Assembly (NCBI RefSeq): GCF_001049755.1 | Contig: NZ_CVLB01000001.1 | Span: forward strand, 558,001-622,000 | DNA: 64,000 nucleotides | Reading direction: 5' to 3' | DNA from: Brachyspira suanatina | GTDB lineage: Bacteria; Spirochaetota; Brachyspiria; Brachyspirales; Brachyspiraceae | Shown: positions 53,363-55,430 of the stretch, in pieces | How the letters are laid out: each line of letters begins with the position of its first letter | How positions within the stretch are numbered: position 1 is the stretch's first letter | Made by a program: the position numbers and the translations under genes | Notes under the pieces: generated by a model | Told to the model about the DNA's origin: nothing | Databases searched by the model: none | What the model saw: the letters and a program-made list of their open reading frames with translations, nothing else

Positions 53363-53426
53363 AATTATGATAACTTTATAAAAACAATTACTTGTTTAAA
53401 TAAACTTGTGTAAAGTTATCATAGTT
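53363..53426. terminator. Large inverted repeat after the AAA/TOPRIM-like pair
   Basis: ATGATAACTTTA (53367-53378) and TAAAGTTATCAT (53411-53422) pair perfectly, extended by further pairs, enclosing a smaller GTTTA/TAAAC palindrome. It probably ends the minus-strand AAA/TOPRIM transcript, or is a two-way terminator. With the frameshifted tail at 53467-53628 it accounts for the stretch 53275-53593. Confidence 0.5.
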
Positions 53427-53466
53427 TTAACATTTTTTACTTTTAATAGTTTTCAGTAAATTTTTG

Positions 53467-53628
53467 TTATTTAATAACATACCTATTATCTAAACAAAAT
53501 TTAATAAATTTATGCATATTTGAAATATTTTTTACTTTTAAAAGTTTTTTATAAAATTCTTCTATTTGCTTAATATCACTTTCTATATCTTGTTTAGTAA
53601 TTGGAAATATTTTTATATAATTTTTTTT
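53467..53628 (-). other. Continuation of the TOPRIM-like protein in the -1/+1 frame after an A9 tract
   Basis: The TOPRIM-like frame runs through GAT-A9-TTAT at 53621-53629 (minus strand) and then stops at 53594. If the tract has 8 A instead, the reading frame continues without stops for 53 more codons (NYIKIFPITKQDIE, then FYKKLLKVKNISN, to RYVIK) to a TAA at 53467. The continued frame has normal amphipathic helices and codon use. The full protein would be about 205 residues. Confidence 0.65.
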
Positions 53629-54085
53629 TATCTTTTTTGTTTTTTATAGTATTTTTATCAATAATTTCAGCCTTAATCAATACATCTTCTAAATTTGTAA
53701 TATTATATATTGGTACTATATAATCATAAGCCCAATAATTTTTAAACATATTTTTATTTATAAAGTTATTTTTTTCTTCATCATTATTACAGTCATCTGT
53801 ATCCATTATTATAAAAATTTTAAAATCTTTGTCTATTATTGTTTTATGATTTTTTATTTCTAAATAGTCATTATATGTATTCTTAAAATTATCCAATGTA
53901 TTAATATCTTTACCGTTTAATCTTTTCATTATGCTAGATATTTGTATAGAATGTTTTCCATTATCTTTTGATATTATATGAATATTATTTAATCTTAATT
54001 TATTTTTTATAAAATTACACATTTGTAATTCAGATTTTCCATGAACAATAACTATAGCTTTAAGATAATTTCCTATATATGACAT
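53594..54085 (-). CDS. TOPRIM-like partner protein of an AAA ATPase (frameshifted at the 3' end)
   Basis: The in-frame part is 163 residues. It starts KAIVIVHGKSELQMCNFI, the glutamate strand of a TOPRIM-like fold, and has FKIFIIMDTDDCNNDEE near residue 92, the matching DxD motif, then IVPIYNITNLEDVLIKA. Such small TOPRIM-type proteins accompany AAA/SMC-like ATPases in phage-defence pairs (compare RloB/AbiL, PARIS AriB, OLD-type). It is translationally coupled to the ATPase: its ribosome-binding GGAGG overlaps the ATPase stop, 4 bp apart. The C-terminal end is disrupted by an A9 tract. Confidence 0.7.
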   Translation of the reverse strand: MSYIGNYLKAIVIVHGKSELQMCNFIKNKLRLNNIHIISKDNGKHSIQISSIMKRLNGKDINTLDNFKNTYNDYLEIKNHKTIIDKDFKIFIIMDTDDCNNDEEKNNFINKNMFKNYWAYDYIVPIYNITNLEDVLIKAEIIDKNTIKNKKDKKKLYKNISNY

Positions 54086-54089
54086 ATAG

Positions 54090-55430
54090 TTATTCCTCCA
54101 ATATATCTTTAAAATCTATATCAGAAACAATTGGAATACCATAATATATTCCTTTCAAATATCTTTTTCTAAAATTTATATTTGGATGTTCATTTTCATA
54201 ATCTGTTATAGGAACTAATATTTTTTTTCCTTCGCTGTCTATATTAAATATATATATACATTCTTTTTTTATATCTGACTCTAAAATAGTTGTATTATGA
54301 GTTGTTAATATAAATTGTCCCTTAATATCAGCAAATAATGATTTTAGTATTGATGCTGTTAAAATATCATGTATACCGCTGTCTAATTCATCTATTGCTA
54401 CTACATTATTTTTTTTCGTAGATGATATTATTAATTGGAATAAATCAAGCAGTTTTTGTGTACCTCTTGATTCTAATTTAAAGTCTATATCTATAATTTT
54501 TCCGTATATTTGTTTTTTTATAAATAAATTATAATGAAGTTTATTATCTTTTATTTCTTTTTTATAATATACTTCCTTTATATCACTGTAAATAGCCGTA
54601 AAAAAATTATTTAATATTTTTTCTGTATGATTAAGCTTTTTTTCCTCATTTATTTTTATAGAACCATTATACATTCTAGGAATAAATTTTTTATCTATAC
54701 TTATTTTTCCTTTTTCTATATTACTGCTATTTTTCATATAAATAGACATTGATAAAAAATATTTAATAACATCAAAAATATTTTTATTTATATTTTTTGA
54801 TATATATTGTTTATTTTTCTCTTTTTTTTCAAATAAGAGAATAGATAAAAAAGAATGTTTACCCCAAAACTTATCCACTAAATCTTTTATTTCATTTAAA
54901 TATTTATCAGATTTAAATAATGATGGATTTATATAATTCTCTTTATTATTATTAGATAATTCAAAATATTTTGTTTTATTTTTATCTAATACATACTCTA
55001 ATTTTTCTTTTACAATACCTTTATGATCAGTTTCAATATGATATAGTCCATTTTTACCATCTAATTTAAACCCAAATTCCAAAATCATATTATCTTTAGA
55101 ACCAATAGTTTTGGTTTCTTCTATTATATCAGTTATATTATCCAATATTTTTAAATTTTCTTTTAGCATTTTATTAATTAATAATTCCAATTCTTTTTCA
55201 TCATCTTTATTTTTCATTTTTTCTAGCATAAACTTATCTAAGACGGTTTTGTATATTTTAGTATTTAATGTGTCAAATAAAGTAAAAAATGCATTTATAA
55301 AATTAGTCTTACCAGCACCATTTTCCCCATAAATTATAATCATTTTTTTTGGATTATTTTTTGATGATGTTAAATCTACTTCAAAATCAACTAATGATTT
55401 ATAATTTTTAAGTTTTACATAAGTAAACAT
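54090..55430 (-). CDS. AAA_21-type (OLD/RloA-like) ATPase
   Basis: A 446-residue SMC/ABC-like ATPase. Walker A is IYGENGAGKTNFINAF near residue 33; an ABC-type signature region LESRGTQKLLDLFQLI lies near 325, Walker B VVAIDELDSGIH near 348, and the H-loop FILTTHNTTIL near 378. The C-terminal LKGIYYGIPIVSDIDF resembles the ending of ATPases paired with RloB/TOPRIM proteins. The middle (about 100-300) is a lysine/asparagine-rich coiled-coil insertion. Together with the next gene it forms a compact two-gene operon. By family it is a candidate phage-defence ATPase. Confidence 0.85.
   Translation of the reverse strand: MFTYVKLKNYKSLVDFEVDLTSSKNNPKKMIIIYGENGAGKTNFINAFFTLFDTLNTKIYKTVLDKFMLEKMKNKDDEKELELLINKMLKENLKILDNITDIIEETKTIGSKDNMILEFGFKLDGKNGLYHIETDHKGIVKEKLEYVLDKNKTKYFELSNNNKENYINPSLFKSDKYLNEIKDLVDKFWGKHSFLSILLFEKKEKNKQYISKNINKNIFDVIKYFLSMSIYMKNSSNIEKGKISIDKKFIPRMYNGSIKINEEKKLNHTEKILNNFFTAIYSDIKEVYYKKEIKDNKLHYNLFIKKQIYGKIIDIDFKLESRGTQKLLDLFQLIISSTKKNNVVAIDELDSGIHDILTASILKSLFADIKGQFILTTHNTTILESDIKKECIYIFNIDSEGKKILVPITDYENEHPNINFRKRYLKGIYYGIPIVSDIDFKDILEE

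Follow-up and report, generated by a model that had tools for sequence, protein, structure and literature searches.

In the PARIS defence system, a hexamer of AriA sequesters the tRNase AriB until a phage protein frees it (PMC12409363). Pairs of an AAA ATPase and a TOPRIM_OLD protein have been reported as toxin-antitoxin pairs (PMC10440598), and a homologue of AbiLii proved toxic to E. coli; in that study AbiLi failed to neutralise the toxicity (PMC3985639). The metal ligands of Bp OLD are E400, E404, D455, D457, T506 and E508, and the single substitution E400A did not abolish cleavage by this enzyme (PMC6755086); cleavage by GajA depends on E379 (PMC8136825). Here we analyse a two-gene module of Brachyspira suanatina that lies in a 64,000-nucleotide stretch of contig NZ_CVLB01000001.1 (hereafter the window). 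It is likely to be a split ATPase-TOPRIM module of the abortive-infection type, similar to AbiL and PARIS, with an effector of a new family that carries an invariant histidine; in this genome the effector has recently been frameshifted. By analogy, toxin-antitoxin could serve as an alternative label.

Both open reading frames lie on the minus strand at the positions given in a preliminary description of the window. The upstream gene (54090–55430) encodes an ABC/AAA_21-type, AbiLi-like ATPase of 446 aa, the predicted sensor or inhibitor, with the Walker A (GENGAGKT), Walker B (VVAIDELDSG) and H-loop (TTHNTT) motifs that had been recognized earlier. Pfam confirmed its class (AAA_21, 4.5e-15; AAA_15 also matched) and PADLOC assigned it to the AbiLi profile (E 1.5e-42), while its structure was predicted poorly (pLDDT 43). 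The partner gene begins after a gap of 4 nt (coding-strand junction ATATTGGAGGAATAACTATATG). As assembled (53594–54085, minus strand), it encodes a frameshift-truncated, TOPRIM-like protein of 163 aa without the conserved Y-x3-F-P...C C-terminus. That C-terminus is found out of frame in the remainder of the gene (53467–53620, minus strand), where approximately 45 residues are protein-identical to the orthologue in genome G012. The GGAGG ribosome-binding site of the partner (54095–54099, minus strand) lies within the last codons of the ATPase gene, directly before its TAA, and the ATG of the partner follows 9 nt further on. Translational coupling, as first proposed, is therefore plausible, although GGAGG abuts the ATPase stop codon and does not overlap it. 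A promoter scan yielded no more sites than were found in shuffles. The GC content of the module is 17% and 20%, compared with 31% in the two flanking genes. In Brachyspira it is flanked by housekeeping genes, purH and a gene for an outer-membrane protein (OMP), and not by a defence island.

In the reading frame of its family, the partner is 205 aa long, and intact Brachyspira partners range from 196 to 211 aa. It contains the HGKSE and MDTDD motifs reported earlier; across 14 aligned homologues, with identities down to 36%, HG-SE and D-D do not vary. Together with a dN/dS of approximately 0.1–0.3 for both the ATPase and the partner gene, this conservation places the observation beyond chance. 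The alignment of homologues revealed invariant residues V12, I13, H15, G16, S18, E19, G43, S46, I47, I93, D95, D97, F114, Y122, P125, Y156, F160, N189 and C197, of which the frameshift takes away everything from Y156 onward. Searches of the partner against Pfam, NCBIfam, PHROGs and PADLOC gave no match beyond noise, and the intact partner matched neither the AbiLii and RloB models nor, in Pfam or PADLOC, AriB (DUF4435). The AbiLii model did recognize a Lactococcus prophage protein used as a positive control (4.7e-18). Solved structures searched by sequence with the partner profile yielded nothing meaningful, comparing the profile with individual RloB proteins or an alignment of RNase M5 gave scores below significance, and the six genomes searched for RloB (PF13707) contained none. 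The small protein thus still falls outside described families, as had been suspected. The truncated partner gave a weak match to the mad4 model (E 0.014), and this identity was rejected when intact orthologues gave no mad4 match; because the model also recognizes RNase M5-like TOPRIM proteins, the match is at best a hint of a TOPRIM fold.

Structural prediction was more informative. The AlphaFold2 model of the G012 partner (pLDDT 82, pTM 0.82) yielded OLD TOPRIM domains as ranks 1–4 in Foldseek (E 8e-3 to 1.1e-2), and OLD, GajA and TsOLD took ranks 1–13 in VIA-align 2 (Z 6.1–7.2), with an rmsd of 4.0–5.3 over 130–147 residues for the top matches and Z 5.7 for the best unrelated row. The match is moderate, with Foldseek E never below 8e-3 and Z never reaching 8. 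Nevertheless, these individually moderate figures agree with one another, with the ATPase neighbour and with the order of the motifs, so the partner is likely to adopt a TOPRIM fold, in line with the TOPRIM-like pattern first proposed from its motifs. Given an ungapped first strand, H15 aligns with GajA E379 and Bp OLD E400, and E19 with E404; the same register for H15 recurs in the below-significance profile comparison. On that alignment the partner would be a TOPRIM protein with histidine in place of glutamate: the invariant TOPRIM glutamate is lacking and all 14 homologues have histidine there, while the DxD motif and the second glutamate are kept (D95, D97 and E19 are invariant) and an acidic residue is conserved at position 133.

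The pair extends well beyond Brachyspira. Full-length pairs with the same partner occur in one Lachnospiraceae and one Oscillospiraceae MAG (Clostridia) and on two E. faecalis conjugative plasmids, and Oenococcus phage phi9805 has a pair whose partner is frame-disrupted. Intact pairs include those of an E. faecalis plasmid (NZ_CP090559) and of B. innocens (L031). Viral scans with Brachyspira-only queries gave no matches; wider alignments then found pairs on IMG/VR viral contigs and prophages, with terminase-like phage genes downstream on one contig. Searches for the partner gene by itself detected it in more genomes from G042's family and G043's order; apparent internal TAA stops in matches from the latter order proved to be normal terminal stops. 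Approximately 1% of 398 genomes in the wider phylum had a match, and within Spirochaetota matches were restricted to Brachyspira.

Among 26 Brachyspira genomes, the ATPase is present in 10 and absent from 16, and it is intact in all 10 loci. The adjoining partner is intact in five of these (G006, G007, G012, G017 and G018) and split across two contigs in G005. In the other four it is broken: by the frameshift in B. suanatina, by a nonsense mutation and a 1-nt deletion in G016, by a nonsense mutation in G019 and by an early frameshift in G022. G019 and G022 are closely related (ATPase dS 0.08, dN/dS 0.13) and their partner lesions differ. At least three sister genomes carry independent breaks in the effector gene, whereas all the ATPases stay intact. 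By gene length alone, the probability that all four first lesions would fall in the partner is (0.32)^4, or approximately 0.01. This partner-only pattern fits a costly effector, and we regard it as suggestive rather than strong.

The OMP gene and purH flank the pair in at least six genomes. A few hundred bases lie between these two genes in sister species, and the slot is empty in G008, G010, G003, G011, G015, G002 and G024. G004 and G010 retain fragments that match the 3' end of the partner or its downstream copy, and G020 keeps two short C-terminal partner remnants. In the window, a 77% copy of the partner 3' end (53420–53472, minus strand; source 53515–53567) lies downstream of the partner and appears to record a former copy or an exchange. 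Together, the fragments, the remnants and the second tail copy make loss of the pair by deletion likely in some lineages. Divergence from G012 differs sharply between the two genes (dS 0.07 for the partner versus 0.33 for the ATPase), so the module is mosaic, which indicates recombination within it.

Several other features were observed around this site. In G023 (L093), an unrelated repetitive coding fragment of coiled-coil-like character occupies the slot in place of the pair. A GC-rich element of approximately 60 nt with TGCTTACG/CGTAAGCA ends is repeated in AT-rich intergenic DNA, in the empty slots of G008, G004 and G003 and downstream of the partner in L010, L012, L016 and L017; it is possibly a dispersed mobile or REP-like repeat. 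The leader of the OMP gene upstream of purH carries C runs (8 and 9 Cs) at corresponding positions in two species, L086 and L088 (G002 and G015), a candidate tract for leader-based phase variation of that gene. In G005, a 10-G run lies next to the truncated partner, on the coding strand of L015, where it separates the fragment of the partner from a radical-SAM gene.

The frameshift itself admits several readings. The tract (53621–53629, minus strand) is exactly nine As on the coding strand, and the conserved C-terminus downstream of it sits in another frame; the earlier calculation that eight As give 205 residues and nine give 163 is correct. The further suggestion of phase variation was not supported by comparison with other Brachyspira, where the tract has eight As in three sister species and is interrupted in five; runs of at least eight As occur at only four of nine loci, and the sister genes are broken by unrelated lesions. 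The tract is thus not a conserved phase switch. It could still be a genuine on/off switch in this genome, acting by replication or transcriptional slippage to set the amount of active effector: lengthening from eight to nine As is just the kind of change reported for 'pseudo pseudogenes' that slippage rescues (PMC1088944), the codons downstream are intact and, within the 64-kb window, sense A runs of at least nine are depleted in coding sequence (3 observed versus 10 expected from synonymous shuffles). This depletion would be expected if such runs slip and agrees with slippage being costly in this genome. However, 8-A runs are ordinary here, since the ATPase gene alone has four, all in frame, and the sister partners were broken through nonsense mutations and other indels, so we consider a switch improbable. 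We rate just as low the chance that assembly or sequencing introduced the ninth A by mistake and that the gene really encodes an intact effector. Admittedly, the gene otherwise looks functional, its sole fault being one homopolymer indel, and one sequencing error at the tract is conceivable even in a sound assembly. Nevertheless, when 49 ORFs (approx. 51 kb) were aligned to G012, no other internal off-frame indel was left uncompensated: the rest were close to ORF ends or offset each other, so the assembly is not generally faulty; lesions in the sister partner genes also argue against an error. We conclude that the effector of B. suanatina was put out of frame very recently, by extension of an 8-A tract to nine.

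The loss of the catalytic glutamate could mean a different or a lost activity. The histidine might render the TOPRIM domain inactive or non-nucleolytic, so that the partner would be, for example, a regulator or nucleic-acid binder acting through the ATPase, and the residue missing from every aligned member is indeed the one required for cleavage by GajA. On the other hand, H15, E19, D95, D97 and the acidic residue at 133 are still conserved, and the retention of cleavage by Bp OLD E400A means that histidine could substitute as a metal ligand; we therefore think a non-nuclease role rather unlikely, if marginally less so than a switch or an error at the tract. Far less probable is that the chromosome has adopted the ATPase for a housekeeping task and that its partner is an accessory gene in decay. 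The shared locus in several species and the persistence of an intact ATPase under constraint beside a broken partner are consistent with this, but the absence of the gene from most of the genomes searched, the low GC and the pairs on plasmids and phages are not.

The ATPase profile, the predicted fold and the distribution on mobile elements all support the original proposal that the pair is a candidate phage-defence module. The empty slot in sister species and the low GC also count towards a defence module, while the housekeeping neighbours and the moderate fold match count against it. An abortive-infection role is likely by analogy with PARIS, with the AAA:TOPRIM_OLD toxin-antitoxin pairs and with the toxicity of AbiLii. 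TOPRIM catalysis, sensing, toxicity and phage defence itself are inferred for the pair. The ABC-type ATPase would act as the sensor and hold in check the small effector with its TOPRIM fold; once a phage infects, the ATPase would release or activate the effector, which would cut or otherwise attack nucleic acid, and growth would stop. In B. suanatina most transcripts would give a truncated, probably inactive effector, and transcriptional slippage at the nine As could leave the lesion leaky, with some full-length protein produced. A broader proposal is more tentative, and we give it slightly under even chances: that these TOPRIM effectors, coupled to an ATPase, form a new family in which an invariant histidine replaces the catalytic glutamate, implying another metal site or chemistry, and which is found on prophages, on conjugative plasmids and in gut bacteria and has been silenced repeatedly in Brachyspira by effector-only lesions with the ATPase kept. 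The histidine would then be a natural glutamate-to-histidine experiment on the TOPRIM active site, and the decay of effectors but not ATPases in sister genomes opens the cost of such defences to testing.

Among known systems, the OLD family and GajA of Gabija share with the partner its predicted TOPRIM fold, the DxD motif and the second glutamate; they differ in that the genes are split here, glutamate is replaced by histidine and there is no GajB helicase, the gene downstream of the pair encoding an outer-membrane protein rather than a UvrD-like GajB. In the NetFlax AAA (D29):TOPRIM_OLD pairs, an AAA ATPase neutralises the adjacent TOPRIM_OLD toxin (PMC10440598); S. agalactiae D60 is the toxin tested there. 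PARIS, a proposed Class 4 OLD system, likewise has its ATPase and TOPRIM in separate genes and a sensor-effector logic, whereas the present partner, at approximately 205 aa, has no AriB/DUF4435 match and is missing the catalytic glutamate. AbiL (AbiLi/AbiLii) and other RloA/RloB-type pairs are similarly bicistronic, with an AAA_21 ATPase first, a TOPRIM-like second gene of approximately 200 aa and an ATPase of the AbiLi profile, but the Brachyspira partner is unmatched by AbiLii and RloB models and has histidine in place of glutamate. The likeness to RloA/RloB, AbiL and PARIS noted at the outset therefore holds for the shared design and the AbiLi-type ATPase and not for the small partner, which belongs to neither RloB nor AriB; with it, an effector family absent from the Pfam, NCBIfam, PADLOC and PHROGs models searched would join the ATPase-TOPRIM defence systems.
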